The translations under genes were made by a program, and so were the position numbers. Below, piece by piece: positions 24,836-46,664 of a DNA stretch of 64,000 bases; the first letter of the stretch is position 1, and every line of letters begins with the position of its first letter. Below the pieces are notes generated by a model, which was not told where the DNA came from, did not search any database, and saw nothing but the letters and a program-made list of their open reading frames with translations. The stretch is from Dermacentor variabilis (Eukaryota > Arthropoda > Arachnida > Ixodida > Ixodidae), in NCBI RefSeq assembly GCF_050947875.1, contig NC_134569.1:261031100-261095099 (forward strand), in the 5' to 3' direction.

Positions 24836-26020
24836 TCAATTACGACTGCAAAGTTTTATATAAGCTATGTATATCATTCGATACCGTGAAAATGCGATAT
24901 CATCAGCGTATACGTAAACCTGTACGTCATGATATGTCGCGATGTGATTTAGTAAAATATTGAATACTGGGGAAAGTACTGCACCTTGAGGAACGCCCTT
25001 TGTCTGTTTGTAACTTTTAGAAGAAACACCATTTTGATAGCAATAAAATGTTCGTCCGGTTAGAAAATTTTGAATCCACGCAATTATATGCTGTGGAAGA
25101 TTCACAAAATTGAGTCTGTTGATTAAAGTACTGTGGTCGACACTGTCATACGCCTTCGCAATGTCTAATATCACTAAGGCCGCGTACTGGTTGTTGCGGC
25201 GAGCGAGTTGAATTCTACTCTCCAAGTCAACATGAGCACACCAAATTGAGCAGCCGGGCCTGAATCCTAGTTGAGAATCACTTAATATTAGGCTCTCGCC
25301 TATCCACCTATCGATGTGACTATACAGAACTCTCTCGATTAACTGTACAAGATTTGAGGTCAGAGAAATAGGTTTAATTTTGTCTATTGTATATCAATTG
25401 CCTGGCTTTTTGAGTAGTGGAATTATTTTGGCAACCTTCCAATCTTGATGAATCTATGCATTTTAATCGGCTAATTTATATAATTACGCAAATCCTGGGG
25501 AGACAATTGGAATAATAATTTTATCATTGCTGTAGTCATGCCATCGCGACCTGGGGCTGAAGCTGGCAGCATGTTTACTTCTCTCATTAATTCTTGTAAC
25601 GTGACTGTTATGTAATCATTAGCTGGTTCAGGTGCCGGTATATGATAGGGGCGAACTGATGTGAATCGGCGTTCTAAGCCTTTTGCAATATCCTCCAGTG
25701 ACTGCACTAATTCAGTGGAGGTTAAGCTAACAGACTCTACATTTATTGGGGCTGAAACAATCTTTTTAGACCGAAGAAACCAAAATAGGGTTTTTTTTAT
25801 TACTAGACTGCGATAGGTAACTGTAATGTCTGGTGTCAAAATTTTCATTCGCTTTGTCAACTGTTTGCCTGAATGTAGCTGCAACAAACATATAGTCATT
25901 CCATTTACGTGGACATTGATTATACAGTAACTTTCTCCAGGCTGCCTTTCTTCTTCTATATGCGCGTGCACAGTCCGGATTCCACCATGGCGAATAAGTA
26001 CCACCTTTAGTTGACTGCAT
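24836..26020 (-). pseudogene. I-clade LINE reverse transcriptase
   Basis: LPASAPGRDGMTTAMIKLLF (fingers), NNQYAALVILDIAKAYDSVD (motif A with catalytic Asp), GVPQGAVLSPVFNILLNHI (motif B) and VYVYADDIAF (motif C, YADD intact) are visible. The frame breaks between 25471 and 25225 and again after YADDIAF. The enzyme would synthesise cDNA at a nicked target. Confidence 0.85.
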
Positions 26021-26141
26021 ACTGAACTTTCATTTTTTATAACAGTTACTTAGCACTTGACACAAATTTACTGCCTTAACTTCATCATTTAGGCCAACCT
26101 GTTTCTCTAAAGCTGATCGCAGTGAAACGTGAAATTTACTA

Positions 26142-26155
26142 TAGTTTTATTTATT
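26142..26155 (-). repeat. CR1 3'-terminal tetranucleotide repeat
   Basis: TTTATTTATTTA on the plus strand, i.e. (TAAA)n in element orientation. It marks the 3' end of the CR1 insertion, followed immediately by I-clade LINE coding sequence. Confidence 0.75.
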
Positions 26156-26545
26156 TATTTACAGAGTACCTACATCGCCATAAAGGCATTACGTAGGGGG
26201 AACAAAATATAAAAAGTAATACAGAGAAGCTTTCGGACAGATATACTGACAAACAGAATCACTACAGCAGCTGTAAGAGAAAGGCATGCAAGTAACGTGA
26301 AACAAGCAGGTTCCAAGATACATAACACATACATTTGTTTTACAAGAGCGCCGCCACAGCGTTGAATAGAATAGTTCGTTATTTGACACATTTACTCTAT
26401 CATTTCATAAACTGTTCCATTGTCTAATTGTTTTGAGGAAAAAGAGTAGTAGAAAGTGTTTGTTCTGCAGTTATAGGCTGAGATCTTTTTGTTGTTATCA
26501 CAGCGAGTCGATATCTAATCTGTTTCCAGGAGATAGTTATAGCGA

Positions 26546-28357
26546 TTAATACCTGTGATTATTATATATTCGATGCAATACTTTAAGCCTTAACTTCTGC
26601 CTACGCATATGTAGTAGATCCCATCCTAAAGTGGCCTTCATTTCGGAAACGCTAGAGTACGGGCTGTAATTATTGCAAACAAACCTTGCTGCTTGGTTCT
26701 GTAATTTTTCCAGTCTATTAATGAGGTAATCTTGATAGGGATCCCATATTACACAAGCATAATCAAGTATGGTTCTAAGATGTAAGAAGTATAAAGTTTC
26801 TTTAACTTCGCGTGTTGCCTGTTTAAAATTTCTGCGAATAAAATGTAACATCCTGCTAGCTTTTGCTATGACAGTGTCAATGTGTTTATGTCAAGTGAGT
26901 GATTCGGTAAAATAGACTCCTGAATACTTATATTCCGACTGTATGTCGATAAGCGTGCCATTGATGTTATATCGGTGCTGAAATTTGGATAATTTTTTGG
27001 AAAAACTTACGCTACTGCACTTTCTTATATTTAAATTTTTCATGTTCTATTTTTTACACCAGATCGCTACCTTATCTAAATCTGTTTGCAATGTATCTAT
27101 GCCATCCTCAGTGGTAATTTCTCTGTAAATCACACAGTCATCAGCAAATAGTTTTATGAGTGATGTAATTAGTTCGACAATGTCATTTATGTAGATTAAA
27201 AACAGCAAGGGCCCCAGTACGCTTCCCTGAGGAACGCCCGAAGAAACAGTTATTGGTGAAGATGCAGCGTTGTTTAGGACAACAGACTGGGTTCTTCCGT
27301 TTAGGTAGTTTCGTATTTAATTTTGAACGTTTTCGTTTATATTTAATGCAGCGAGCTTTACATCTAGGAGCTTATGGGACACAATATCGAAAGCTTTTTC
27401 AAAATCAATAAAAACCGCGTCTACCTGACTATTGTTATCAATGGTTTTAGATAAGAAGTGCTGGAATTCTATTAGTTGTGTGTTGTAGGAATAACCTTTT
27501 CGGAATCCGTGCTGGGAAGGTGTAAAAAAAGCATTTGAGTCAAGGAATGCAGATATGTTACTATATAAAATGTGTTCGAATATTTTGCAACATATTGACG
27601 TTAGTGAAATCGGCCTGTAGTTTTCTCTGAGTTTTCTATCGCCTGATTTAAAAACGGGTGTCACGCTAGCCGTTTTCCAATCTTAGGGAATGAGGCCTGT
27701 TTCAAGGGAAAGCTTATAAATGATCGTTAAATACAGAGAAATGATGCCATGACACTCTTTAAGGACTATTGGGGATATTCCATCAGGTCCAATTGCTTTT
27801 GTGTCATCTAAATGCCGTAATAAAGAGTCGACGCCACTAACATCAAATTCAATGTCTGGCATCATATCGCCTTGATTGGCGTTGTTCAAAAGCAAAGTCT
27901 CCCCAGCAGGTAATAGCGAAAACACAGACTGGAAGTACTTGTTGAAGCATTCCGCCCTCTGATAGACCGACGTCACGGTTTTGCCGTCAACAGTTAAAGA
28001 TGGTATCGATATGTCTTCTTTTCGATTTTGTTTTACATATTTCCAAAAAGATTTCGGGTTTTCTCTCAAGTCTTTGTTTAATTTAACAAAGAAGGTATCT
28101 TTGGCAGCTTTAATCGTTGCTTTCAATAGCTTATTTATCTCTTGCAAGCGTTCCTGATTTGCCAGACTGGTGTCGGCAGAAAATGCTTTATACGTTTGTC
28201 TTGCTTTCCTTATAAGTTTACGTATGTCTACGTTAAACCAAGGTTTCTGTTTTTTTCGTTGCCGCAGGTACCTGCATGGAACATGACTTTCGACTAGTTC
28301 AAGTATTTTGTCCCGAAATGCTGACCACAAAGTTAACGGACAGCGTGCGTTTGACAT
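26546..28357 (-). pseudogene. CR1 ORF2 reverse transcriptase
   Basis: The linker and fingers (KPWFNVDIRKLIRKARQTYK, DTKAIGPDGISPIVLKEC) are in the 28357-27683 frame. RT continues with PVFKSGDRKLRENYRPISLT, VDAVFIDFEKAFDIVSHKLL (motif A), GVPQGSVLGPLLFLIYINDI and FADDCVIYREI (motif C intact, near 27150). A C-terminal region, LRTILDYACVIWDPYQDYLI, ends at 26546. Stops or shifts occur near 27670, 27315, 27050 and 26890. Confidence 0.85.
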
Positions 28358-28449
28358 ATATTGGAAAGTAGGAAAGAAATTCTCAAGTTCGGTCCTGATA
28401 GCAGCATAGTCTCCTCTGTCGTATAGCTGTACACTTTTCTTTGCGGAAT

Positions 28450-29095
28450 TTGCGCCATCCGTGCTCGCTGTATGTTAAGTTCTATGACAACTGCCCTGTG
28501 GTCACTAATACCTGGGCAAACAGTAACTTTTGATATTATGTCCGGCTCATTGCAAAGTACTAAGTCTAGAATTTCATTTTCTCGCGTAGATTCCAGTACG
28601 TACAGCTGCAATCCATTTATTCCGAGCAGTTCTTCGAACTCTGTAAATACGGGACCTATTGCCAGCCACACATCCGGAATTCCAGTTGAAGTCTGGCAAA
28701 TTGAAATCCCCCCCTAGAAATACGCTATTAGGCAGGAGAGATAGCATCTCAGACAACAATCCGAATGAGTCGCTGCTGCCGGGTGGGCGGTAGAATGTCC
28801 CGTAGACTACATTGTTTCCGTTAGGCAATTTCACAAGGTACCAGACAGACTCAGAATCGTTTTCAAATAAAATTTGTGTACTTGACAATGCATTTTATAT
28901 CAAAAGGAATACTCCCCCGCCATGTCCATGCCTATCTTTCCGATAGACAGTAAAACCAGGCGGAAAGATTTCTACATCAGGTATATCCTTGTCTAACCAT
29001 GATTCGGTGCCCATCACAATCTGAGGTTTAACAGTGGCTACTAAAGACATGAAGTTATCAACTTTGTTCTTTATGCTGCGACAATTTACAAGCAC
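28450..29095 (-). pseudogene. CR1 ORF2 endonuclease domain
   Basis: The domain begins LVNCRSIKNKVDNFMSLVAT and contains IVMGTESWLD, VYGTFYRPPGSSD, FLGGDFNLPDFNW and, after frame breaks at about 28910 and 28650, EILDLVLCNEPDII and GISDHRAVVIELN. These are the E, Y, GDFN and SDH active-site blocks of APE-type nucleases; all are still readable. Confidence 0.83.
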
Positions 29096-29389
29096 GACAG
29101 AGAGCCGTTCAGGCTGCGAGCAACGTGCTCAGTTATCTTTCGGAGGAACGGAATTCGGAATGCGTCATTTCCCTCTGTCCAGTCGCGCATGCGCCTGAAG
29201 TGGAACTGGCATCCGCATATCGCTATCCCAGACAAACGTTTGCCCATTGATGATCAATTTATCATAATTCAAGCGAACACGATTTTCTTTGTTCTCTCTT
29301 TTTTCTTTCGCATAATTCCAAAGCTGACGTCTTTTTTTTTGTACGGCTCGGCTGAAATCTTCAGAGATGCTGTACTAAGTGCCTTTTAG

Positions 29390-30081
29390 TCTGTAAGCGT
29401 TTTTAAAGACATTTTCTCTAGCCTTCCACCTTGAAAAGCATGCTACCATGGGCCGGTTTTTGCCTTTTCTGAAAACGCCTACGCGATGAGCCCGTTCAAC
29501 CGAAATGTCATCAAGTTTCATCACATCTTTGCATATTCCACTTATTAGTTTTTCAGACGCCTCCCACGTCTCGTTATGCTCCCTGTCAGGCAACCCGAAA
29601 AAGACCACATTCCGTCTACGGCTTCTATTTTCCAAGTCGTCTAGTTTAGCCATAAATTTATCTTCCATTTTTCCACCCGAGCAATACGACTTTCTACATT
29701 GTTTGTCTTCTCTATTAAGCCCGTAATTTTGGATTCTAATTCACATTGTCTTGTTGTAATTTCCGTTAACTTCGCAAGCACAGTTTCCTGGCCTGTTTTC
29801 ATTTCTAAGAGAATCCTTTCAATGTTTCTCATTTGGTCACGTTCAACTGCATTCATGGGCCCTGGATTTAGTTCTACATCCCCCGATAGGAGCAGTAAGA
29901 TTTGGGAAAGCGTCAGGCAGCCGTCGTAGAGAGAGAATCGTAGAGCATCAACGAAGCGCAGGCTGGCTTGTTCAAGACACTCAATCATTTGTCGCTTGCT
30001 AATGGGGCACGACACTCTTAAAAGCATAACGTTGCTAGAGCGATAACACTTAGTTCCATTTAGGTAACTGACCTGGTACAT
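29390..30081 (-). pseudogene. CR1 ORF1: leader-2A peptide, coiled coil, RRM-like domain
   Basis: The likely start is the ATG at 30081, 70 bp downstream of the innermost TATA box. Residues 1-75 form a leader ending LLLLSGDVELNPGP; the skip would fall between Gly74 and Pro75. Next comes a heptad-like helix rich in Glu, Lys and Ile (MRNIERILLEMKTGQETVLA onward). After one frameshift near 29660 follows ENRSRRRNVVFFGLPDREHN and ISVERAHRVGVFRKG, the RRM-like RNA-binding fold of L1-type ORF1 proteins. A third frame around 29360-29190 continues with WNYAKEKREN and VWDSDMRMPVPLQ, the C-terminal domain. The protein would coat LINE RNA. Confidence 0.8.
29857..29886 (-). other. 2A ribosome-skipping motif in CR1 ORF1 leader
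   Basis: SGDVELNPGP is encoded here, preceded by a Leu-rich ILLLL. It matches the D(V/I)ExNPG|P consensus, at which the ribosome fails to form the Gly-Pro bond and releases the upstream peptide. 2A sequences at the N-terminus of LINE proteins are known from trypanosomes and several animals. Activity here is inferred from the motif. Confidence 0.85.
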
Positions 30082-30120
30082 GAAGAAGCGTGAGTTTGTG
30101 CCGAAAAGAGCGTCGTGCCC

Positions 30121-32220
30121 CAGTCGCTCTAGGCTTGGCTGGTCCTTTATATGGCCAGCGCGCAGCGGAACCGGAAAGGTTCCCTGATGCGCAGATTCCA
30201 CTTCGGTGCGTCGGAGATCGTACACGATTTCCAGCAAATAATCTTGCGGACCGTGTAAGGCATGAGCAGGTGATTGCAGATCCGTTGTAGCAGCATCTGG
30301 CCAAGGTTTGGTGAAGCCATGTTCCACCGCGAAGTCGGCGTTCGCCACAACAGCGAAGAATGCGAGCAGCACCTGGCACATGAAGAAGCGTGAGTTTGTG
30401 CCGAAAAGAGCGTCGTGCCCCAGTCGCTCTAGGCTTGGCTGGTCCTTTATATGGCCAGCGCGCAGCGGAACCGGAAAGGTTCCCCGATGCGCAGATTCCA
30501 CTTCGGTGCTTCGGAGATCGTACACGATTTCCAGCAAATAATCTTGCGGACCGTGTAAGTCATGAGCAGATGATTGCAGATCCGTTGTAGCAGCATCTGG
30601 CAAAGGTTTGGTGAAGCCATGTTCCACCGCGAAGTCGGCGTTCGCCACAACAGCGAAGAATGCGAGCAGCACCTGGCACATGAAGAAGCGTGAGTTTGTG
30701 CCGAAAAGAGCGTCGTGCCCCAGTCGCTCTAGGCTTGGCTGGTCCTTTATATGGCCAGCGCGCAGCGGAACCGGAAAGGTTCCCCGATGCGCAGATTCCA
30801 CTTCGGTGCGTCGGAGATCGTACACTATTTCCAGCAAATAATCTTGCGGACCGTGTAAAGCATGAGCAGATGATTGCAGATCCGTTGTAGCAGCATCTGG
30901 CAAAGGTTTGGTGAAGCCATGTTCCACCGCGAAGTCGGCGTTCGCCACAACAGCGAAGAATGCGAGCAGCACCTGGCACATGAAGAAGCGTGAGTTTGTG
31001 CCGAAAAGAGCGTCGTGCCCCAGTCGCTCTAGGCTTGGCTGGTCCTTTATATGGCCAGCGCGCAGCGGAACCGGAAAGGTTCCCCGATGCGCAGATTCCA
31101 CTTCGGTGCTTCGGAGATCGTACACGATTTCCAGCAAATAATCTTGCGGACCGTGTAAGTCATGAGCAGATGATTGCAGATCCGTTGTAGCAGCATCTGG
31201 CAAAGGTTTGGTGAAGCCATGTTCCACCGCGAAGTCGGCGTTCGCCACAACAGCGAAGAATGCGAGCAGCACCTGGCACATGAAGAAGCGTGAGTTTGTG
31301 CCGAAAAGAGCGTCGTGCCCCAGTCGCTCTAGGCTTGGCTGGTCCTTTATATGGCCAGCGCGCAGCGGAACCGGAAAGGTTCCCCGATGCGCAGATTCCA
31401 CTTCGGTGCGTCGGAGATCGTACACTATTTCCAGCAAATAATCTTGCGGACCGTGTAAAGCATGAGCAGATGATTGCAGATCCGTTGTAGCAGCATCTGG
31501 CAAAGGTTTGGTGAAGCCATGTTCCACCGCGAAGTCGGCGTTCGCCACAACAGCGAAGAATGCGAGCAGCACCTGGCACATGAAGAAGCGTGAGTTTGTG
31601 CCGAAAAGAGCGTCGTGCCCCAGTCGCTCTAGGCTTGGCTGGTCCTTTATATGGCCAGCGCGCAGCGGAACCGGAAAGGTTCCCCGATGCGCAGATTCCA
31701 CTTCGGTGCTTCGGAGATCGTACACGATTTCCAGCAAATAATCTTGCGGACCGTGTAAGTCATGAGCAGATGATTGCAGATCCGTTGTAGCAGCATCTGG
31801 CAAAGGTTTGGTGAAGCCATGTTCCACCGCGAAGTCGGCGTTCGCCACAACAGCGAAGAATGCGAGCAGCACCTGGCACATGAAGAAGCGTGAGTTTGTG
31901 CCGAAAAGAGCGTCGTGCCCCAGTCGCTCTAGGCTTGGCTGGTCCTTTATATGGCCAGCGCGCAGCGGAACCGGAAAGGTTCCCCGATGCGCAGATTCCA
32001 CTTCGGTGCGTCGGAGATCGTACACTATTTCCAGCAAATAATCTTGCGGACCGTGTAAAGCATGAGCAGATGATTGCAGATCCGTTGTAGCAGCATCTGG
32101 CAAAGGTTTGGTGAAGCCATGTTCCACCGCGAAGTCGGCGTTCGCCACGACAGCGAAGAATCCGAGCAGCACCTGGCACATGAAGAAGCGTGAGTTTGTG
32201 CCGAAAAGAGCGTCGTGCCC
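30121..32220 (-). promoter_or_regulatory. Array of seven 300-bp monomers, CR1 5' UTR/promoter candidate
   Basis: The period is exactly 300 bp over 2100 bp. Each monomer has CATATAAAGG on the minus strand (TATAAAG at 30151-30145 and every 300 bp up to 31951-31945), directed towards ORF1. About 30 bp downstream of each is GGGGCACGACGC. The element's own outer end lies in that same GGGGCACGACGC, consistent with transcription from an upstream monomer of the parent copy. Three diagnostic sites alternate between successive monomers, giving 600-bp dimers repeated three times. The monomer nearest ORF1 is the most diverged. Because 300 is divisible by 3 the array is also open as a protein frame, which I consider incidental. 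Confidence 0.75.
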
Positions 32221-32269
32221 CCCCCCCCCCATAGGTGCGGACATAACATAGGTGCGGACATGCTTTTCA

Positions 32270-32925
32270 ACCAAATTAATTGGGCGCGTTATTTCGAAAG
32301 TTGTTGGAAGATGGTCGCTGTTTGTGGCCGAGGTAATAGCAGACCATGAGGAAATTACACAGCCCGAACTGGAAAAAGTTAGGTCTAACACCGAACGCGA
32401 TTTGCCTGATACATAAGTTGGGGTTGTCGAATTTACACAATTAAGGTTATTTGACGAAACCCAATCTAACAATCGTTTACCACAAGAGTCGGACCGATAA
32501 CAGCATGATACATGGTGAGAATTAAAATCACCAGCTATGATTATATCCTTTCTGCATGCTGCAACCGCGGCATCAAGAGAGCCTGTATTTCGGACTCCTG
32601 TAGGGAAATAAACATTTATTATCGAAAATGGGGCGCATCCAGGAAGCGTTACATCCAATGCTAGAATCTCACTTTTAGTGGAGAATGACTGGTGACTAAT
32701 TTTAGCTCTATGACAATTTTTTGTGGAGATGAAAAATGTTAATCCCCCTCTACGAGAAGGACGATCTAGACGAAAACTGCGATAATTCGTCAAATGATAA
32801 CTCTTTTCCGTGGATAACCAAGTTTCTTGCAGAATAATCAAATCAGGAGAAAGATCTTCACAGAGATATAAGAGATCAGCGGCTACAACAAAAATGGAAG
32901 GACAGTTCCACTGCAGCACTTTCAA
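32270..32925 (-). pseudogene. I-clade LINE endonuclease domain
   Basis: It starts MKVLQWNCPSI and contains LIILQETWLSTEKSYHL, RLDRPSRRGGLTFFI, IINVYFPTGVRN, IIIAGDFNSHHVSC, SRSVLDLTFSS and NSDHLPTTFEI. All APE active-site blocks are intact in one frame of about 220 codons. The frame fuses accidentally with the translated CR1 monomer array to give a 1094-codon open frame (32925-29641), which is not one protein. Confidence 0.88.
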
Positions 32926-33234
32926 GCTTCCTATGTTGACGATATTCCGGCAGCATTAACTGCCGTCTACAGACTATTACCCTTTAGGAAATCATCCTTT
33001 GATAAGCTCTTATTTTCCCTCTTTTTTAGCTTTTAGTTTGTGGAGGGTAGTAGCTCTTTGAGAGTATGGAGAAGCACGACGTTTACAAATTCTACCATCC
33101 AATTCCATGTTCTCCATGGTATCTGAACCGGATTCGTGACTGTGAAAGCCCTCACGTTCTACATGAGTTGCGGGAGCTTCGGAGGCGTCAGTAGTGCGAG
33201 GCGAGGCCTCTGCCGATACGTGTTTCTCTGTGTT

Positions 33235-34310
33235 CTAATCAGAGACTGTGATTTCAGAAGCAACACCTGGACGCGCAGCAACATGCAAAAGTAGCGACAA
33301 CTGAGAGGCCAGAACTTGTCCAACAGTCTCTGAAAGGTTCGTAAATAAACTGTCAAGGGCTTTTGCCATAGCTTTCTCTACGGCATCACCAAGAGATGCA
33401 TCCATTGCTTTGGAGTGACGAGCAGCAGCTTCATCATAGCCACATGATTTCTCTGATGAGAGTGCGCGAGCCTCACGACGCGAACACCGCTTCCGTTCTA
33501 TAATTTGTGGAATTTCGAGCTCTTGGTCTCTCGCAGGGCATTGCGCACAGTCCGCTGGGTGAGAACCTTCACACAAACAGCATCGTTCGCTCTGAGAGGA
33601 ACACGTTTTTCTATCGTGGCGTTCTCAGCAAATGTGGCACCGAAGCTCTGATCGACATCCCTTAATACTGTGGCCATATCGCCAATACTGAACGCATTGC
33701 ACTGGGCGTGGAGAAATTGCTTCCACCCTCTATATTAATTGCCACGCCTTGATCTCTGACGGCCTATTTGTGCCTGCAAAGGTGACATTAACTGACTCTG
33801 TGGGGGCTCTTTGATTCTCACAAACGCGTGAACATCGATAGACGGAGACGGCACCTGCCGGGTAGAACATCTGCAGGACCTCAGAAGCACACAGACTCGC
33901 GTCGACTCCACGAACTAGCCCCTTAACGCAAGCTAGATGAGCAGGAATGAAAGGTCTCACCGGGTGATTCGCGAACATCAGAAAGTCGGAGACACACGTA
34001 TGTTCTGACGAACAGCATAGAATGCCCCCTCTGCCAAATTGTCGAACATCGGTTATGTTTTGGAAATACGGGGTTGCTTTCCGCAGCTCTTCTTGAATCA
34101 CCTTGGGATTCTTCACGCGGATGAAAACACATTGGTCGGCACTAGGGCCACTGAAACGCTGTGAATGCCACTGCGCAAGAAAGCCTCTATAGGCATGTCA
34201 TTAGTGGGTAGCGAAGCCGTCCAGAGGAAAGATCTCTGGCCGGGAGAAGAAAGAGACATTAGGAACTCACAATCAGATTTACGACACAATAAGAGGAAAG
34301 TACAAAACAA
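33235..34310 (-). pseudogene. I-clade LINE ORF1 (gag-like, zinc knuckles), frameshifted
   Basis: In pieces: FLMSLSSPGQRSFLWTASLP; VIQEELRKATPYFQNITDVR; FMFANHPVRPFIPAHLACVK-like text; then CVQYWRYGHSIKGC, CHIC-stop-ERHDRKTC and CCLCEGSHPADCAQCP. The last three are the zinc-knuckle series of I/R1 ORF1 proteins. The first knuckle has Tyr in place of its second Cys and the second contains a stop. A Ser/Arg/Ala-rich tail follows at 33576-33235. Confidence 0.72.
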
Positions 34311-36532: not shown

Positions 36533-36595
36533 TATTGCTGGGTACCATAGCTGGAAACGGAGCTCCGCAGTGGACGTCGCATCACCGTCCGCACC

Positions 36596-37144
36596 ATGAA
36601 TGACGGTGAGCACGCGGGATCAACGTCATTGCCGCTTCCAAGGTCACCTTCGCCAGCTGCGTCGCTCTCGCCTTTGGTTGTTGTTGTGCAATCCAAGGAT
36701 CCTGGAACTTTGTACGGGACCGATGGCGCCGACGTTGAACAGTGGGTAGAGATGTACAAACGCGTGAGTGGAATCAACAGATGGGACCCTACGCTTATGC
36801 TAGCTAACCTTTTATTCTTCCCTATAGGTACGACAAAGGTGTGGTACGAAAATCACGAAGAGGAGCTAACCAGCAGGGACCAATGCAACAAAACGTTGAC
36901 AGACTTATTTGGCAAACCAGCCGGCCGTAATATTGTAGCAAAACTGGAAATGGCCTGCCGTGCCCAATTCCACACAGAGTCCTGTGTCTCGTACATCGAG
37001 GACGCGCTGGCGCTTTGTCGTAAATTCGATCACGACATGACAGAAGCTGAGAAGGTCGGGCACGTGCTGAAGAACATAGCTGAAGACGCCTTTATTCTGC
37101 TCATGTGCAAAAGCTACTCGACAGCTGATTCTATCATCAAATAG
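36596..37144 (+). pseudogene. Gypsy-2 gag
   Basis: 182 codons ending in TAG. GTDGADVEQWVEMYKRVSGI, KVWYENHEEELTSRDQ, ESCVSYIEDALALCRKFDHD and MTEAEKVGHVLKNIAEDAFI line up with gag of Gypsy-1 and Gypsy-3. A degraded tail and zinc-knuckle region follow out of frame. Confidence 0.83.
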
Positions 37145-37640
37145 TGCCGACATTGGGAGCAGGACAAAAGCCGACGCGTCTTGCAACCATTCGCCAGACT
37201 TCCCAATACTGCCGCATCGTCGACGTGTGAAGAACAACCCGCACAGCAGCATGCGTCGCCGTCAGAGGACGTGGTGCGCATTGTTCGACGTGAAGTGGGT
37301 GTGATGGCGCCCGCGTAGCCCTGACGCTACCCCTTTTTCAGTTCCCCTCGTACGAGCAATCGTTCGCCAGGAACTTGAAAACATTCGTTTACATTCGAAC
37401 GCCCCCCTACTATTTTCACTCCACCTCGACGTTGCTCTCCACGTTATGGCAACTCCACTGAGTAGAGAACTGCGGACGACCAGCCGATATGTTTCACCTA
37501 TCGCCACATTGGTCACGTCGGCCGGTACTGTCGCAAATCGTGGCCCTCAACAGCTTACACGCCGACCAACCTGGGGAATTTAATGGAAATGGCCGCAATG
37601 TTTCGCCCACCGCCGAGTCTAAAAGTGCCGACAACTCTGC

Positions 37641-38273
37641 TTGGAATACGTGATACAGTCGCTTACCATCGCCGCGCAGACACCACTCTCGTTCACCGCA
37701 AACACGTCGCCTATCTTTCCGTTCACCGCAGCCACGTCGCCTTTCGTCCTCTGTGGCTTTCAGCCACAGCCTTTAGGAAAACTAAGAAATGCAGTCTTCG
37801 GAGGTGGTGTTGCATTGCCTACTACAGCAGCATATCCTATGTCTGTGCTCACAAGGAGAAGTGTAATTGACGTTAAAATAGACGGCGCATATGTCCAAGC
37901 AATCGTCGACACTGGAGCCCACATATCTGTGATGAGTGCTTGCTTACGTGGACGTTTAAAGAAGGTCCTCACACCAGCAGCTGCCCGAGTGCTTCGGGTG
38001 ACCGACGGCGGCGTGCTGCTTGTACTTGGAATGCGTACTGCATGTTTAAGCATAGCCGGCCGCCCTGCTTCTCTTCTCTTTGCTATGATCAATAACTGCT
38101 CTCACGACCTTACCCTTGGATTGGACTTTTTATCCACTCATTCTGCTCTCCTCGAATGCGTGACCGGCATTCCTCAGTTACAACTACCTGAACTCGCCGA
38201 TGCTCCGAGCACTGCCCCACCGCGCTCGTGCTCGCTTCAAGATGTGCGTCTGTCACCTGGCATAGGTTCCTGA
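37641..38273 (+). pseudogene. Gypsy-2 protease region
   Basis: The 210-codon frame contains VDTGAHISVMS (aspartic protease active site DTG) and the second protease landmark LTLGLDFLSTHSALL. It ends at TGA shortly before the RT frame. Confidence 0.82.
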
Positions 38274-38406
38274 TAGTGAATATGTGCTTCGACCCACCAT
38301 CGACGTGCTTTCGAACCGGAACGTTGCTGTTCCGTATACCTGGTCACGGTTACTAACAACGACGTCGTTCTACCACTTCTGAATCCCAGAAAACCTGTGC
38401 CCTCAA

Positions 38407-39240
38407 GTGATTCCGGCCGGCATGTTTTTGTTCAGTGTTTCTAGTGGTTCGGAATTTGACATTGAGAGTCTGAATGCCGAGAGTGGCTTACTAGCGCCAA
38501 TTACAGCTCACAGCTTCGATTCCTTAACGGATGACTTCGCGAAAATGATTGCACCTGACCTCCCCTCTGAACAGGCCACGAACTTGCGTCTCCCGCTTGA
38601 ATCGTACAATGACATCTTTGACTTCGGCGACAGGCCTTTAGACAAAACATCTATTATTCACCACCGTATAAACACTGGAGACACGAATCCTATTCGTCGA
38701 CGTCCGTATCGTGTTTCGCATCCTCAACGTCGAGTCATCCAATCAGAAGTGGACAAAATGCTCCGCAAGGGGGTCGACGAGCCATCAGCCAGTCCTTGGG
38801 CTTTGCCTGTCGCCCTTGTGAAAAAGAAAGATGGTGCGTAGCATTTTTGTGTCGATTATCGGCACCTAAGTAAGATCACGTGAAAAGACGTCTACCCACT
38901 ACCACGCATCGATGATGCCTTCGACTGCTTACACAGAGCTAAATACTTCTCGTCCATCGATCTTCGATCCGGCTACTGGCTGATTTCAGTTGATGAAATG
39001 GAACATGAGAAGATGGCCTTCATCACGCCGGTTGGCTTATATTAGTTCAAAGTCATGTCCTTTGGCCTATGCAATGACCCTGCGATATTTGAACGAACGA
39101 TAGACTCTCTTCTGCGAGGCTACAAATGGACCACTTGTCTTTTTGTTACCTTGACGACGTTATTGCTTTTTCTCCCACGTTCGGCAGGCACCTGACTCGA
39201 CTCGCTGCCATTGTTGCCGTCTTCCGAAAACCGGCCTCTA
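38407..39240 (+). pseudogene. Gypsy-2 reverse transcriptase
   Basis: PIRRRPYRVSHPQRRVIQSE and SPWALPVALVKKKDGA form the N-terminal part. After a stop at 38839 come FSSIDLRSGYWLISVDEMEH and MSFGLCNDPAIFERTIDSLL. The catalytic YLDD codons are intact at 39147-39158 but out of frame with the preceding block. At least four stops or shifts. Confidence 0.82.
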
Positions 39241-39378
39241 AATGAACTCCACGACGTGTCAGTTCGGGCACTGTCAGATTACCGTGTTTGGACACATCGT
39301 TGACGCATCCGGTGTCCAACCAGATACGGAAAAAGTTCGCAGCGTACGCCATTTCCCGGCTCGACATTCTGCTCTGAC

Positions 39379-40000
39379 GTGCGCTGCTTCGTCGGCTTGT
39401 GTTCTCATTTCTGCCGCTTCGTCAAAAACTTCGCCGACGTTGCTCGGCCTTTGAGAGATTTTCTGAAGAATAACACGCCATTCTCATCGGGCCTGAAGCA
39501 GGCTCACGCGTTCGCCGCTATCATCGGGTTTTTGACCACCACTTCCATACTTGCCCACTTTGATTCATCTGCACCGGCCGAAGTCAACACTGACGCAAGC
39601 GCCCATGGAATCGGTGCTGTTCTCGCCAAACATCAGAATGGTACCGAGTGTGTGATGGCTTACGCCAGCAGCCTGCTGTCACCTGCCGATAGAAATTACT
39701 CCATCACCGAGCGGGAGTGCTCGACTCTAGTTTGGGCTGTCGCCAAGTTCCGGCCATATTTGTAGGGCCCCACATTTTCGGTCGTTACAGACGATCGCGC
39801 ATTCTGCTGGCTTTCTTCCCTCCGGCACCCGACAGGACGGCATGGTCACTGGGCTTTGCGGCTCCAGGAATTTTCGTTTAGTGCCCATTACAACTCTGGA
39901 CATCTGCGCAAGGACGCTGACTGCATCTCTCGTCACTCAGTCGATGCCCCTGATCCTGCTGCGCATGATCCGGTGACCTACGTGATGGCTTTTACAGACA
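39379..40000 (+). pseudogene. Gypsy-2 RNase H
   Basis: CFVGLCSHFCRFVKNFADVA, AEVNTDASAHGIGAVLAKHQ, MAYASSLLSPADRNYSITER and FSVVTDDRAFCWLSS give the RNase H series with the first Asp (NTDAS) kept. A TAG stands at 39763 within the FRPYLYG-type block. Confidence 0.8.
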
Positions 40001-41139
40001 TGACCGACATGCGCGCTGAACAACAACTCCACGAATTTTTACGGTCCATCATCGCCGGAGTGCAATCTGGCAGCACTGACGCCACGTGCCGCATGTTCGT
40101 TCTTCACGACGGCATTCTCTACCGCCGCAATATCAAACCTGACGGCTCTGAGTTCCTCCTTGTCCTTCCTCGTCATGTGCGATGCGTCGCTCTCGAACAA
40201 CTTCGCGATGCACCGACGGCGGGACGCCATGGCGTTTTGAGTACATACGAGCGCGTACGACGCCGGTTGTTCTCACCGGGTCTCTACCGCTGTGTGCGTC
40301 GTTATGTCGCAACTTGCGAATTGTGTCAGCACCGGAATAAACCTCCCTTGCCACCGGTCAGAGGACACCATCCAATTGAAGTTCGCTATAAATCGTTCTT
40401 TCGCGGAGGCCCTGACGTGCTTGGCCCTTTTCGGACGACGACTAGAGGGAATAAGTGGATCGCCGTCGCTACTGATTACGCGACACGCTAAGCGACAACA
40501 AAGACGTTGCCGACTAGTTGCGTAATAGACGTCACCAATTTTCTTCTCCACGACGCCATTCTCCACCACGGTGCACCTCTGCAGTGACTTAAAGACCGTG
40601 GCCGCTCGTTCTTGTCTCGAGTTGTCGACAACCTCCTCCACTCTTGTGCCACTGAGCACATGCTGTCCACCGCCTACCACCCACAAACGAACGGTCTTAC
40701 AGAACGTCTCAGCCGAAGAATCACAGAGATGCTGTCGATATATGTCTCCAACGATCACCGCGACTGGGACGCCACGCTGGCCTACGTGACGTACGCGTAT
40801 AACTCGTCCCGACATGGCAAGACAGGATATTCACCCTTTTATCTTTTGTATGGTCGCAACCCCACGTTGCCGTTTGACACCATTTTCCGTTCTTTGCCAC
40901 GTATTGCAACTGAGTACGCTCGTGAAGTCTTCGATCGGGCACGTCAAGTCGCCCGATCTCGTTTATTAGCCTCGCAGCATATACAAAAAGAGCTTGATGA
41001 CCAGTGCCACCGTGATGTTAAGTTCGCGCCAGGTGCTCGGGTGCTTCTTTGGTCACCATGTCGTGGAGTTGGCCTCTCCCACAAGCTTCTTTCTGGCTAC
41101 AGAGGGCCTTATGAAGTGTACGTCAAGTTAACGACGTAA
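40001..41139 (+). pseudogene. Gypsy-2 integrase
   Basis: A zinc-binding region (HGVLSTYERVRRRLF, CELCQHRN) precedes the catalytic core: GGPDVLGPFRTTTRGNKWIA, LKDRGRSFLSRVV and STAYHPQTNGLTERLSRRIT keep D, D and E. The C-terminal part ends LLSGYRGPYEVYVKLTT. Stops at 40489 and 40585 break the frame. The enzyme would insert cDNA into the genome. Confidence 0.82.
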
Positions 41140-41283
41140 AAAACGAGATTCCGCCGCTACACTTTCATGCATCCTCAAGTGCGACGCCTGTAGACGTCGT
41201 GCACGTTTCGCGGCCGAAGCCACACTGCACTCGCTATTCGCTTACCATGCCCCGAGACTGCGCTTCACTGCCCGGGGGTCCTG

Positions 41284-41381
41284 TTACGAAAGGATGAAAG
41301 AAGAGAGGAAGATGAAGATCGCGGGAAGCTGGCTGCTGCGTGTTGTTGGTGGTCAGCCATCTTAACTACTCACACTCACCT

Positions 41382-41456
<75 letters not shown>
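41284..41456 (+). repeat. Gypsy-2 3' LTR, first part, with expanded TA repeat
   Basis: It starts TGTTACGAAAGGATGAAAGA after a purine-rich CCCGGGGGTCC tract. It ends inside a 73-bp (TA)n run (41384-41456), where Gypsy-3 is inserted. Confidence 0.82.
41384..41456. repeat. (TA)n microsatellite
   Basis: About 36 uninterrupted TA units in the Gypsy-2 3' LTR. The matching run in the 5' LTR is only about 13 units, so it expanded after insertion. Confidence 0.95.
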
Positions 41457-41458
<2 letters not shown>

Positions 41459-41613
41459 TAAGAACTATTATTGTACTTCGTCGTTTTCATTTCTACAAAG
41501 CCATCATCATCTTCCCTGTTCTTCGACTTCTCGCGCATGAGCTGGGGCGTTGCCTTTTTTTTGGGGGGGGGGGGGGGGTACAGCGCAGGACAACTTGGTT
41601 GGTCTTGATATTA
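41457..41613 (+). repeat. Gypsy-3 5' LTR (before the MITE)
   Basis: It begins TCTAAGAACTATT, against TGTAAGCACTATT in the 3' LTR (first bases changed), and matches the 3' LTR to GGTCTTGATATTA. A poly-G run at 41562-41579 replaces GGGGAAAAAA. Confidence 0.75.
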
Positions 41614-41777
41614 GAGAGTTTTAGTTTAGGAGACGCAAGCGGCTTGCGTACGCAAGAACTAGGGGCGACGGTACTGCGCATGCGCAGACGCTGAGGTAGG
41701 GGTCTGCGCATGCGCAGTACCGTCGCCCCTAGTTCTTGCGTACGCAAGCCGCTTGCGTCCCCTAAACTAAAACTCTC
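41614..41777. mobile_element. 164-bp hairpin MITE with TA target duplication
   Basis: The two 75-bp arms (41614-41688 and 41703-41777) are reverse complements with a single mismatch, around a 14-bp loop. The ends are GAGAGTTTTAGTTTAGG. TA flanks both sides (41612-41613 and 41778-41779), the target choice of Tc1/mariner-type elements. Removing it restores Gypsy-3 LTR sequence. The near-perfect arms imply recent insertion. Confidence 0.85.
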
Positions 41778-41884
41778 TATTGTGTAGTGGTGGAGGTACG
41801 TCAAGACCTCGACGTCCTCTCGCGTTCCCGTCCTTGCTGGAGCTACGTTCCGGTCGCCACCTGCGCCCGGCTGCCCTTACAACG

Positions 41885-42544
41885 ATGGACACTTCCAACC
41901 CCCGCTCTTCCGGCGCCTCTAACCCTACCACACAGCCGACACCGCCTGCGGCACCCTCTTGGACTGTGACGAGCCCTCAGCGCGATCCCCTTGTTGTTGC
42001 GGGACTCCACAGGGATGACGTCGACGATTGGGTCGACCACTACGATCCCGTGAGTTCTTGCAACAAGTGGAACGACACCCAGAAATTGAGGCACGTCGCA
42101 TTCTGCTTGACCGGTGTCCCAAAGACGTGGTATTTCAACCACGAATCCGACATCGCGGATTGGTCCACGTTTACCTCCAAGCTTCGACAAATCTTCGCTT
42201 CCTCGTCTGGCCGTCCAGAAGTCGCCAAACAGAAGCTGGGCACGCGCCTCCAATTTCCACAGGAGTCTTACGCCTCATACATAGAGGATGCCTTCGCTCT
42301 GTGCCGCCGTGCGAACCCTAGCATGACGGAAGCCGAACGCGTTCGCCACATATTAAAAGGCATTGGGTCTGTCGCATTCAACGCCTTAATCGTGCAAAAT
42401 CCGGCTTCTGTTCAAGACATCACTGCCACGTGTCAACACCTAGGCGAGCTGCAGTCTATTCGTCTTCAACATGACAGCAGCGATCATCAGGTTCACCATT
42501 CTCCAGATCTGCGTGCTCTTATTCGCACCATCATCCGCAAATAG
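41885..42544 (+). pseudogene. Gypsy-3 gag
   Basis: 220 codons from the ATG at 41885 to TAG at 42542. VAGLHRDDVDDWVDHYDPVS, KTWYFNHESDIADWSTF, ESYASYIEDAFALCRRANPS and MTEAERVRHILKGIGSVAFN are the capsid landmarks. The frame is intact; the knuckle-bearing tail follows in the next frame (42606-43022). Confidence 0.85.
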
Positions 42545-42605
42545 CTTCGACTACAAGACCTAAGGCGTCCACCTGCTGCCTGCGCCCCAACCCCCCCCCT
42601 TCAGC

Positions 42606-43022
42606 TTGCGCGAGGTCGTCAAGCAAGAGTTGACAGCGATGACTACGCCCAGGACGCCTCTTGCTCCAGTAGCACGCCCCACACCTACCTACGCGGATGT
42701 TGCTTCGCTACCCACGCCTACCGTGACCTCCGTGCCTATTGACGCTTCCTATGACTATTTGGCTTCCATGGGAACCAGAGCACTTGCTGCGCCATCCTAC
42801 CCTCAGTGGCGTCCACCTCGTCCGGTTTGTTTTTACTGTTGTATACGCAGCCGTATATCTCGCTTCTGCCGCCGTCGCCAGCAGGATGAAAGACGAGGCT
42901 ATGCTGAGCACGAAAGAGACCGCACTCGCCATGCAGACGCCTACTATCCCAGATCGTTCCCGCAACTCGTTCCCGCAACAGCGTTCTCCGTCTCCTCCAG
43001 CTGCTCCCAATCTGCCTCATAG
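42606..43022 (+). pseudogene. Gypsy-3 gag tail with degenerate zinc knuckle
   Basis: A Pro/Thr-rich stretch is followed by CFYCCIRSRISRFCRRR. In a working CCHC knuckle the position after CxxC-x4 is His; here it is Ser, and a Gly is replaced by Cys. RNA binding by this knuckle is probably lost. Confidence 0.75.
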
Positions 43023-43088
43023 TTCCCGTTCGGCCAGACGTCGTTCTCCTTCGCCTTACCGGCGCTTTACATCACCGCTTCGCCCCAC

Positions 43089-43480
43089 TTGCCATCTTGT
43101 CAACCAGCACTCGGAAAACTAACTGTTGCAGTTTTTGGAGGGGAAACTGCTTCTTATCGGTCTTCAAAAATTCCTCCTGTTCGCCCGGCCAATATGCTTT
43201 CTGTGACTGTCGAAGGTGTTCCCGCGTCAGCGCTCATCGATACCGGTGCCGCCGTTTCTGTTCCTCGTAGTGATCTGTGTTGCCGGCTCCGCAAAGTCAA
43301 AACGCCTTATGTTGGAGCCATCTTGCGTGGGGCTAATAATGCATTCATTCACCCCGACGGAGTGTACTTCTCGTGTTCTCATCGACGGCATACGCCATCA
43401 TATTGAGTTTATCATCCTTCCAACATGTACCCATGAACTTATACTGGGTTGGGACTTCCTACATTCTGCTTCAGCCGTCA
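43089..43480 (+). pseudogene. Gypsy-3 protease, frameshifted
   Basis: SALIDTGAAVSVPRSDLCCR carries the DTG active site in one frame. The second half, IEFIILPTCTHELILGWDFL, is in the frame that continues into RT. The shift lies near 43370. Confidence 0.82.
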
Positions 43481-44625
43481 GTTCATGTAGAGGGGAAGTT
43501 GTCCATTTCACGGATACAGCGCTTGCAGCTGTTACGGCCTCTTCACTTTTATGCGTGAACTTGGCCATCGCTGCAGGCTACGTCCTGCGTCCTGGTCACG
43601 AAGACGTTGTAGCCGTAACATCCAGTCAGATCGCCGACGTAGACGCGCTAGTAGCCCCTTCTTCTCGCTGTACTTCTCGCGGAATTCTCATTGCCACCTG
43701 TCTCGTTCGGTTTTCACGTGGCCGCGCCCTGCTGTCTGCTTGCAACACGACCCCAGATCCAGTGATGCTGCCCAAAGGGATGACTGTGGCAACCCTCACT
43801 GACACTCAACCTATCTCTATAGTTACGCTTTGCCCTTCCTCATCACCAGCACTAACCTTAGGTTTGGATTCTTCTTTCCCTCCTTCAGCCGTTCTTGGTT
43901 CTGACCTAACAGCCGCGCAGACCGAAGCCTTACTGGTGGTCTTGGCAAAGCACAAAGCCTGTTTTGATATCTGTTCCCCTGTGTTGAGCCAAACTTCTGG
44001 GGCTACACACCGCATCGAAACAGATGGTTCCGCTATAATACGACGACACCCCTATCGTGTATCGCCGTCCGAACGCAAGATCATTGAACAACAGGGTGCT
44101 GACATGCTTGCGCGGAAGATAATACGACCTTCATCTAGCCCATGGGCTCCTCCCGTGGTTCTGGTAAAGAAAAAAGATGGCTCCATTGGCTTTTGCGTCG
44201 ATTATCGAGCGCGCAATAAGATCACACGCAAGGACGTATATCTAATACCTCGAATTGACGACGCTTTGGATGCACTACAAGGGGCGGAGTATTTCTCCAG
44301 CATTGGTCTTCCATCAGGATATTGGCAAATTCCGATGAACGAGACTCACAAAGAAAAGACCGCGTTCGCTACACCAGACGGACTTTATGAATTTAACGTG
44401 ATGCCTTTTGGCCTTTTTAACGCTCCTGCCACATTTGAGCGCATGATAGACAACGTACTTCGTGGTCTAAAATGGAGGACCTGCCTCTGTTATCTGGAAG
44501 ATATTGTCATCTTTTCGTCTGACTTCAGCCAACATCTTCATCGATTAGACGAAGTTCTCAAATGCCTTGCAAATGCTGGTCTCCAGATCAATAAAAAAAA
44601 TGCAAATTTGCAAGCAAGAGCCTAA
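43481..44625 (+). pseudogene. Gypsy-3 reverse transcriptase with two active-site changes
   Basis: It is part of a 469-codon open frame (43216-44625). SPWAPPVVLVKKKDGSIGFC, ITRKDVYLIPRIDDALDALQ, MPFGLFNAPATFERMIDNVL and HLHRLDEVLKCLANAGLQIN are well preserved. Motif A reads FSSIGLPSGYW where the family has SSIDLRSGYW, so the catalytic Asp is Gly. Motif C reads CYLEDIVIFS, with Glu for the first Asp of YLDD. Either change should abolish activity. Confidence 0.87.
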
Positions 44626-44741
44626 AAGTATTGGGCCACGTCGTCTGAAAAGATGGCATCCAGCCAGACCCCGAAAAGATTCGTGCTGTTCTTCAGTTTG
44701 CTCGCCCCCAGCAACCGAAAGATCGACGCAGTTTCCTCGGC

Positions 44742-45575
44742 TTGGCGTCATATTTTCGTCGATTTATACGCAACTTCGCTGCAATAGCAGCTCCTCTACA
44801 CAAGCTACTGGTTACGGGTGCCTCTTTCACATGGACTAGCCACTGCGAGTCGGGTTTTCAAGCTCTTAAGCGACGTCTTCCTTCCGGACCAGTGCTTCGC
44901 CACTTCGATAATCGACCCCCCACCATACTCCATACTGAGGCAAGCGCACAAGTTATTGGCGCAGTACTTCTGCAACGTAATGCTGCCTCTAAAGAGCAAG
45001 TCGTACCATATGCCAGCCGAACAGTTTCTTCAGCTGAGCGAAACTACACCATTACAGAGCAAGAGTGCCTTGCTATCGTTTGGTCAATTCAGAAATTTCG
45101 CCCATACCTTTACGGCCGCCACTTCACCATCGTCACCGACCATCATGCTCTGTGTTGGCTGCCATCAATGAAAAACATGTCAGGACGCTTAGGACTAAGG
45201 ATACTCCGCTTGCAGGTATATGACTTTACCATAACGTACAAGTCTGGAAGAAGTCATCATGATGCAGACGCATTGTATCGCTGCCCACTCTCGTTCTCTC
45301 CCGGTAACGCGCCGTCGTCTTCCGCACCACGTCGTTCCCATGCTACGCCTACCTCACACCAGCTCTCGATAACGCCCCTGGACCAAGTTAATCTTTCATC
45401 ACGGTCTGATTTTGTGTCGCTTCAGCGGGCTGACTACTACTGTCGAGCTCTCATGGATCGCCTTAGTGGGTTCGCCGAACCACACAGCAGCCGCTTGGGA
45501 CGCCAACTTCGACAATTATGCCTTCAAGATGGCGTGCTACATCGCTACGTTTACCACCCAACAGGTCACCGGTGA
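44742..45575 (+). pseudogene. Gypsy-3 RNase H and connector
   Basis: YFRRFIRNFAAIAAPLHKLL, ILHTEASAQVIGAVLLQRNA, YTITEQECLAIVWSIQKFRP and FTIVTDHHALCWLPSMKNMS follow in order. The first RNase H Asp (HTDAS) is Glu. A 277-codon frame continues to the start of the integrase zinc-binding region and stops at 45573. Confidence 0.85.
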
Positions 45576-45599
45576 ATCCCAGTTCTGCCTCGCTGCCTT

Positions 45600-46664
45600 C
45601 GCCTGCCAGTATTAGAGGCACTTCACGACGACGTATCGGCTGGCCACTTAAGCTTCCACAAGACTTACGACCGCATGAAGACCCGCTGCTTCAGGCCTGG
45701 CCTGTCCACAACGGTGGCCAAATATATTGCCTCTTGTGCGTCATGTCAGCTCCGCAAACGCTCGACATCCCCTCCTGCCGGTTTATTACAACCTCTCCCT
45801 TGCCCGGAGGCACCTTTTGAATTTGTTGGTATTGATTTGTATGGTCCCTTGCCGTTGACACCCTCCGGTCACGGTTGGATTGTGACCTCGGTTGACCATT
45901 TAAAAAGATATGCCGAGACTGCCCCTCGGCGATCCGGTACCGCTTCTGAGGTCGCCGACTTTTTCTTGCGCTCCATCGTCTTGCGCCACGGGGCTCCTCG
46001 CGTTCTTCTCAGTGACCGTGGCAAGGCGTTCATTTCACAAGTTCTCGAGGAAGTTCTTCGGGCCGCTAATACCGTCCACAAATCTACCTCTACCCATCAT
46101 CCGCAAACCAATGGCCTTACTGAGCGCTTCCACCGTACGCTGTCTGGCATGATTTCGATGTACATCCTTCCTGACCACACTGACTAGGATGAAATTCTTC
46201 CTTTTGTGACATTCGCATATAATACTGCTATTCAACGGACTACCAGCTACAGCCCTCTCTTTCTTGTATATGGACGATATCCTTCCACCATATTCGACAG
46301 AGAATTCTTTTTAGCACCTTCTTCGCCTAACGCGTCGCTTCCAGAAGATTTTGCTGCCCGAGTTGCACACTGCCGTCAAATCGCCCGGGAAAGCACAGAA
46401 CCTACCCAAGCTGAGCGCAACCGTCACTGCGGCAACAAACGCCGTGACGTACGTTTTCACCCTGGAGACCAAGTCCTGCTTTGGACTTCACTCCGCACTC
46501 CAGGCCTCTGTGAGAAGTTCCTTCAACGCTACATTGGCCCGTACACCGTTGTGCAGCAAACATCTGCAGTGAACTATCTCGTCCGCCCAGTACATTCCGT
46601 CACTGACCGGGGCCACCGGAATGCCGAAATTGTTCATGTCTCGCGGATGAAGCCCCCCGTTTAG
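45600..46664 (+). pseudogene. Gypsy-3 integrase
   Basis: HHCC region: HLSFHKTYDRM and CASCQLRK. Catalytic core: FEFVGIDLYGPLPLTPSGHG, RVLLSDRGKAFISQVLEEVL, THHPQTNGLTERFHRTLSGM, with all three acidic residues kept. The frame is broken by TAG at 46186 and resumes as FVTFAYNTAIQRTTSYSPLF to a C-terminal FLQRYIGPYTVVQQTSAVNY and stop at 46662. Confidence 0.85.

Follow-up and report, generated by a model that had tools for sequence, protein, structure and literature searches.

The LINEs examined here, from the tick Dermacentor variabilis, carry one or more copies of a short TATA-bearing unit at their 5' end, and in 33 of the 44 outermost units read in three families the unit starts within a few bases of the site that the TATA box predicts. 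A putative transcription start 30 bp downstream of the TATA box, deduced from the insertion ends, is well supported by position as the origin of these 5' ends. The unit is also open in frame with ORF1, so that two roles are predicted for it, as a promoter and as an in-frame extension joined to ORF1 through a 2A motif.

Tandem units and insertion ends in the window family

The element was read in a window of 64,000 nucleotides, the whole stretch of DNA that was analysed (Table 1). Frameshifts and stops in ORF1 and ORF2 make it a dead copy; its 3' end is a (TAAA)n tail, the same as at most of the other loci where the 3' end could be read, and Pfam finds only RVT_1 in its reverse transcriptase. 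No clear target-site duplication was seen when one was sought at this copy, nor across 10 loci compared, at which old flanks and target deletions blur the signal. Absence of target-site duplication is a trait of the CR1 clade. The LINE disrupted by the insertion (24836-26130 and 32232-33700) has RVT_1 and endonuclease domains, and long ORFs at 36551-46664 look by eye, from the ORF list, like gag/pol of an LTR retrotransposon.

Table 1. Positions in the window of the LINE and of its parts
Feature	Position	Strand	Remark
LINE copy	26144..32230	-	dead, nested in another LINE
Array of seven 300-bp units (R + X)	30122..32221	-	Tandem Repeats Finder and unit comparison
13-G run at the copy's 5' end	32218..32230	-	other units have 4 G
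TATAAAG, unit 1	31945..31951	-	30 bp before GGGG at 31921
TATAAAG, unit 2	31645..31651	-	
TATAAAG, unit 3	31345..31351	-	
TATAAAG, unit 4	31045..31051	-	
TATAAAG, unit 5	30745..30751	-	
TATAAAG, unit 6	30445..30451	-	
TATAAAG, unit 7	30145..30151	-	30 bp before last R (30121)
Last R copy	30071..30121	-	51 bp common to all units; predicted start GGGG 30121; ATG 30081
Splice-donor-like CAG|GTCAGT, end of last R	30067..30075	-	R|X junction of units is CAG|GTGCTG
Predicted leader stem, 5' arm (leader nt 1-16, 16 bp)	30106..30121	-	folding
Predicted leader stem, 3' arm (leader nt 103-118)	30004..30019	-	truncation points of five copies at other loci: nt 114-125
Stop-to-stop open frame, 1104 aa	29641..32955	-	seven units, leader, 2A and ORF1 start; first unit ATG 32181
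2A-like motif DVELNPGP	29857..29880	-	immediately 5' of ORF1 ATG
ORF1 start (MNAVERDQ..)	29641..29856	-	frame breaks near 29650; similarity in other frame to ~29170
ORF2 endonuclease and reverse transcriptase, in pieces	26560..29122	-	RVT_1 2e-12 at 27320-27682

Tandem Repeats Finder delimits the repeat at 30071-32221, with a period of 300, 7.2 copies and a 98% match. The seven 300-bp units with one TATAAAG each that the original prediction had described are borne out, at a position one base away from the one it gave (30122-32221 rather than 30121-32220). A unit is made up of R, 51 bp that include the predicted start site and an ATG, and, downstream of it, X, whose 249 bp end in the TATA box region. 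The sequence GGGGCACGACGC opens all seven units (32221, 31921 and so on to 30421, minus strand), and an eighth, partial unit at 30121, alike over 51 bp, opens the element's own leader. TATAAAG stands 30 bp ahead of each internal GGGG, with seven occurrences from 31951 to 30151; in the window as a whole CTTTATA is found 22 times, seven of them inside the array, against a mean of 8.3 and a maximum of 16 in 100 shuffles. The outermost GGGG has no upstream TATA box and forms part of a 13-G run (sense) that joins the flanking LINE. The nine extra G at this end (32218-32230) could be cap-related or stem from slippage or from the flank; five G occupy the unit's four-G position in L031 and L038. Units 2-6 alternate between two types, A and B, giving a 600-bp dimer period.

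The D. variabilis genome (2.48 Gb, 605 contigs) was searched with one unit as query and all 17 candidates were scored, the copy number being a lower bound. Taking L042 and L044, which have a common flank, as one, the 17 loci give 16 insertions, and in each the 5' end was set at the base where the alignment of the outermost unit begins. It lies at nt 1-3 in 10/16 insertions (P ~8e-17 under a uniform expectation) and at nt 6-17 in four more, so that 14/16 outermost units start at nt 1-17; the remaining two start within the unit, at nt 57 and 115. Most 5' ends thus coincide, as predicted, with the position 30 bp after the TATA box in this family and in two further ones described below; a scatter of 5' ends around the TATA box, named beforehand as the refuting outcome, is not the pattern of these three families.

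One unit is the commonest state, with 11 copies among the 14 leader-bearing loci (11/14); one of the eleven, L046, at roughly 80% identity, has its unit interrupted by an insertion. Long arrays are those of the window (seven units), L032 (nine, the last cut by an internal deletion that joins the array to leader nt 245) and L036 (five, the outermost cut), and intact copies with two to four units were absent among the loci found. It had been proposed that array length changes as copies start from different monomers, and the units of the three long arrays speak against this: G at unit position 45 is common to the seven window units and absent from the element's own leader and from every other locus, 58 A is private to units 2-9 of L032, and 64 G is private to L036, in all its units. 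Because of these locus-private variants, growth at the present locus, or in a private parent copy, is the probable origin of the three arrays. L042 and L044, with two and three units, are a deletion derivative. They lie ~400 kb apart with a common 5' flank, their unit array running directly into the LINE 3' end, and apparently represent a short non-autonomous copy duplicated together with its flank. No variant is private to all units of the L042/L044 array, which may already have had two or more units at insertion.

If every TATA made a template, copies beginning at the start site served by the last TATA, the leader's own GGGG, would be expected to be common. A leader query (24/24 candidates scored) detected no zero-unit copy among the 14 window-family loci with a leader start, all of which have unit sequence upstream, and in the three families together 0/48 loci holding the last R, among the best candidates scored, begin there; the idea that every TATA yields a template is accordingly not upheld. 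Five further window-family loci are truncated at leader nt 114, 117, 118, 122 and 125, and a longer leader query (21/21 candidates scored) added two truncations, at nt 230 and 256, read from match ends alone; L032 was excluded from this count. Of these seven truncations in the leader or ORF1, five fall at the base of a predicted stem (nt 1-16 with 103-118), the chance of 5/7 within any 12-nt window being ~3e-5. The cluster was seen only in the window family, the second and third families being truncated elsewhere, and its simplest reading would be a stall of the reverse transcriptase or a cDNA hairpin.

Other families, the coding frame and the leader

A second family was found in L045 (L045n), another 2A LINE. 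Its R repeat is 69 bp long with a spacing of 267, TTTAAAAG lies ~30 bp before an initiator-like TCAGT, the 5' end is at this TCAGT site, and the predicted stem has 19 bp. Scoring the best 40 of 140 candidates, with counts that are lower bounds, gave at least 13 loci: five with one unit, one with two, one with four, at least one with ten (outermost R cut), at least three cut in X and at least two cut in the leader or beyond. Within the same 40, 5/8 outermost units start within 2 nt of the predicted site, and 0/11 loci holding the last R are zero-unit copies. The third family (L057-L059) has an R spacing of 318, and the best 40 of its 123 candidates, again a lower bound, gave at least 24 loci: 15 with one unit, three with two, one with three, one with seven, and four that are cut or whose outermost R is missing among the matches listed. 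Among these best 40, one-unit copies make up 15/20, 18/20 outermost R copies start within a 5-nt window at the predicted site, and zero-unit copies number 0/23 of the loci holding the last R. In both families copies without an outermost R among the matches listed were taken as cut inside X, and matches of 65-75% identity, which belong to other families, were left unclassed except for ten at the start site. These ten, 73% identical and starting exactly at the start site, were considered as zero-unit copies and rejected, since they belong to another family with its own X: three that were fetched are third-family copies with their own X and R1, and seven show X before the last R.

Five loci of other families (L052-L056, with a similar R in L053 and L055) have R1-X-R2 too, so that the arrangement is present in 8/8 families read as DNA. 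Five of the eight, L052-L056, were picked from the best 103 of 14524 ORF1 candidates partly for their open frames; the window family, L045n and L057-L059 were not selected for frame. With a hand-made matrix the best TATA-like word in 150 bp falls at -27 to -31 in 7/8 families, the word of L052 being weak. The view of the monomer as a TATA promoter therefore stands as far as the position of the TATA word goes; as a promoter only it does not, because of the open frame into ORF1.

In the window one open frame spans all units, the leader, the 2A motif and the start of ORF1, with D(V/I)ExNPGP in frame before ORF1, as in 2A-bearing LINEs. Elements of this type with N-terminal 2A-like signal sequences were reportedly described by Odon in 2013. 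By eye, MCQVLL.. in the units reads as a signal-peptide-like stretch. A protein search returned 61 relatives, the named organisms being all ticks save that of P0048 (snail), and a looser 2A pattern is present in 56/61; 13 of the 61 were aligned together with L045. The R peptide is duplicated in several predictions, from Rhipicephalus sanguineus, D. silvarum, R. microplus, D. albipictus, Haemaphysalis longicornis and Ixodes scapularis. These open at the R1 ATG or ahead of it, go on into a hydrophobic stretch resembling a signal peptide and have the R peptide a second time after ~86-113 aa, followed by 2A-ORF1. The architecture R1-X(TATA)-R2-leader-2A-ORF1 is thereby found in predicted proteins of four tick genera, and in the window units among the matches listed X matches the R. 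sanguineus protein at 63-65% over 104 aa. The monomer protein in its right frame had no relative in the protein database search, and scans of viral and genome contig collections gave none.

R1-R2 spacings range from 267 to 330 and are multiples of 3 in 8/8 families, of which three had not been selected for frame. Taken alone, one unit keeps its given frame open in 6% of shuffles, and another of its sense frames is open as well; L057 and L059 have a stop in X. Variants shared in X, counted without L044 and L046, distribute over codon positions as 7:9:11, with no sign of coding constraint; since the ORF2 pieces show little of it too, this is a weak test. ORF1 relatives at C9:64167574, C1:85726838, C3:239531391 and C4:166687594, from the best 103 of 14524, have open frames of ~1300-2000 aa that may be long in-frame unit arrays, with stops inside the match in 3/4.

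Two further features are set at the last R. Nucleotides 1-2 of the last R are predicted to pair with bases near nt 117-127 in 7/7 families folded (L053 and L055 having a similar R), forming a stem of 16-19 bp that closes at the last start site. In each of five families 0/300 shuffles reach the score of the ungapped stem; the stems of L053 and L055 have an internal bulge, and 193 and 285 of 300 shuffles reach their ungapped score, which is nonsignificant. Across the five ungapped-stem families none of the 16 positions has fewer than two of the standard pair types, and two cells are mismatched. Complementarity at the codon level between the R start and the later motif was scored in 15 sequences (the window and 14 of the 61 relatives, residues aligned by eye, with no correction for kinship; P0019 and P0053, whose leaders are without the motif, and relatives without a readable R2 start were left out), and 0/20000 shuffles reach the score. 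The second feature is a splice-donor consensus at the end of the last R, which reads CAG|GTTAGT, GTCAGT or GTCTGT in 8/8 families (window 30067-30075, L045, L052-L056 and L058) and is found at the R|X junction in 0/8. In the proteins the residue after QV is encoded by a codon with G in the middle in 21/23 relatives with QV in range, the exceptions being P0007 and P0039; 33 other relatives are without QV in range. R ends are acceptor-like as well.

How the upstream unit may be kept

Our best model, which we put forward as plausible though something less than probable, is that of a tandem unit both promoting and coding, in which transcription driven by each TATA begins at the following unit and the stem masks RNAs that have no complete unit. 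Pol II would start 30 bp downstream of each TATA, so that a copy with two or more units would give RNA from an internal R, carrying at least one X, and in this RNA translation would begin at the R1 ATG and continue in frame across X and 2A into ORF1. RNA from the last R would have its cap buried in the 16-19-bp stem and would be poorly translated. LINE proteins act with cis preference, and given this preference a poorly translated last-R RNA would not transpose. The stem would then be a check by which only RNAs carrying the promoter unit are propagated, and unequal exchange between R copies would restore arrays of two or more units and keep R1 and R2 alike. Masking by the terminal stem would account both for the missing zero-unit copies and for the in-frame X. 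The weak point of the model is that one-unit copies would be dead ends until a unit is added, and yet they are the commonest form.

That one-unit form, the commonest in three families and seen also in the ~80%-identical L046, is what the main rival handles well, and we regard this rival as a serious, if minority, possibility. According to it a one-unit element propagates itself from a TATA-less internal promoter at R1 (an initiator in R with downstream elements in X), the TATA of X drives a separate short R2 mRNA that is translated and never retrotransposed, and arrays are by-products of unequal exchange. The absence of zero-unit copies among the candidates scored in three families fits it too, and so does the start TCA+1GT of L045n, L058 and L059, which we take to be initiator-like. 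A promoter element at R1 was not found, however, and self-propagation alone leaves the likeness of R1 and R2 in every family read unexplained.

That likeness, together with the one-unit rest state, would be explained if splicing rebuilt R1-X in each cycle: the donor of a TATA-driven R2 RNA would be spliced onto the acceptor-like R1 end that precedes X, either in trans or as a back-splice. The template would thereby regain R and the exact start, and a back-spliced X-R circle would also yield in-register arrays. The donor consensus (8/8 at the last R against 0/8 at R|X) and the middle-G codon (21/23) favour this reading, which we nevertheless consider improbable: the stretch right after the donor is present in 14/14 leader-bearing loci, and the acceptor RNA would still need a promoter of its own. 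We know of no case of trans-splicing in ticks.

It is likewise unlikely that RNA processing, or a stop of reverse transcription at R, rather than a transcription start, is behind the common 5' end. Some LINEs have HDV-like ribozymes at their 5' end, and the RNA at the start of the last R is predicted to be structured. For the element's strand, however, Rfam gave no hit, an HDV-like ribozyme included, with E values of up to 10 allowed, the first 100 nt of the unit fold no better than shuffles, and the TATA at -30 would become a coincidence. The dimer pattern and private variants of the long arrays are typical of local duplication, but a functionless satellite-like array or an assembly artefact is very improbable, contradicted by the one-unit form in the same phase at many loci and by the same layout in other tick genera. 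A captured host-gene promoter was considered as well and may be involved, although no host gene was found.

Known systems and promoter retention

As a rule LINE promoters are internal, and their replacement is frequent (PMC2881922, as far as its available text goes). Mouse L1 is described as having tandem monomers of ~200 bp with promoter activity and variable copy number (PMC2894050, PMC11602158), the monomers being TATA-less in the text available for PMC2894050. In the tick LINE, as in mouse L1 so described, tandem units lie directly 5' of a unique, non-repeated region; unlike there, each tick unit contains a TATA box with which the 5' ends are in register, it is in frame with ORF1 through 2A, and one unit is the commonest state. 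The Drosophila elements HeT-A and TART are described with tandem promotion and perfect non-terminal repeats, with a repeated segment in TART (PMC5537684, in the part available). The tick arrangement resembles what is reported there in that the predicted promoter lies upstream of the element's own start, in a tandem neighbour, and in that the promoter-to-promoter unit is LTR-like. By position, this placement of the putative promoter in the upstream neighbour holds between the units of a tick array. The HeT-A/TART promoter, in the same account, lies in the 3' UTR of the upstream telomeric element, whereas the tick promoter would be contained in a short 5'-terminal unit of a LINE that is dispersed.

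The A-module of TRE5-A varies in copy number. In the accessible parts of two accounts of this Dictyostelium element (PMC5391098, PMC4559204) the A-module is the plus-strand promoter module of the LINE, and with a heterologous promoter the promoter was left behind and the new copy began at the transcript start. As described there, TRE5-A differs from the tick LINE in having no TATA unit read in frame. Non-LTR elements with 2A are known, with D(V/I)ExNPGP and a hydrophobic N-terminal stretch (PMC4981915, cited by PMC12846837), both of which the tick LINE shares; the available text of PMC4981915 does not mention a duplicated R, a TATA unit or a terminal stem. Among the titles and abstract openings covered by our literature search, most subscription literature lying outside its scope, the architecture is undescribed in ticks.

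The RNA of a LINE should lack any promoter upstream of its start, and by what means LINEs nonetheless retain such a promoter is a long-standing question. We consider it possible, though doubtful, that tick LINEs have a built-in check for promoter retention, in which the TATA unit doubles as an N-terminal coding domain and the stem masks RNAs without an upstream unit. In a bolder form, the donor-like end of R may regenerate R1-X by trans- or back-splicing, as a substitute, in a non-LTR element, for LTR-like strand transfer. The start sites predicted here stand beside a stem whose pairing is kept despite sequence change, a conserved donor-like junction and an in-frame unit, and these LINEs would make promoter retention testable with ordinary tick RNA-seq, as a counterpart to the monomers of rodent L1 and to HeT-A.
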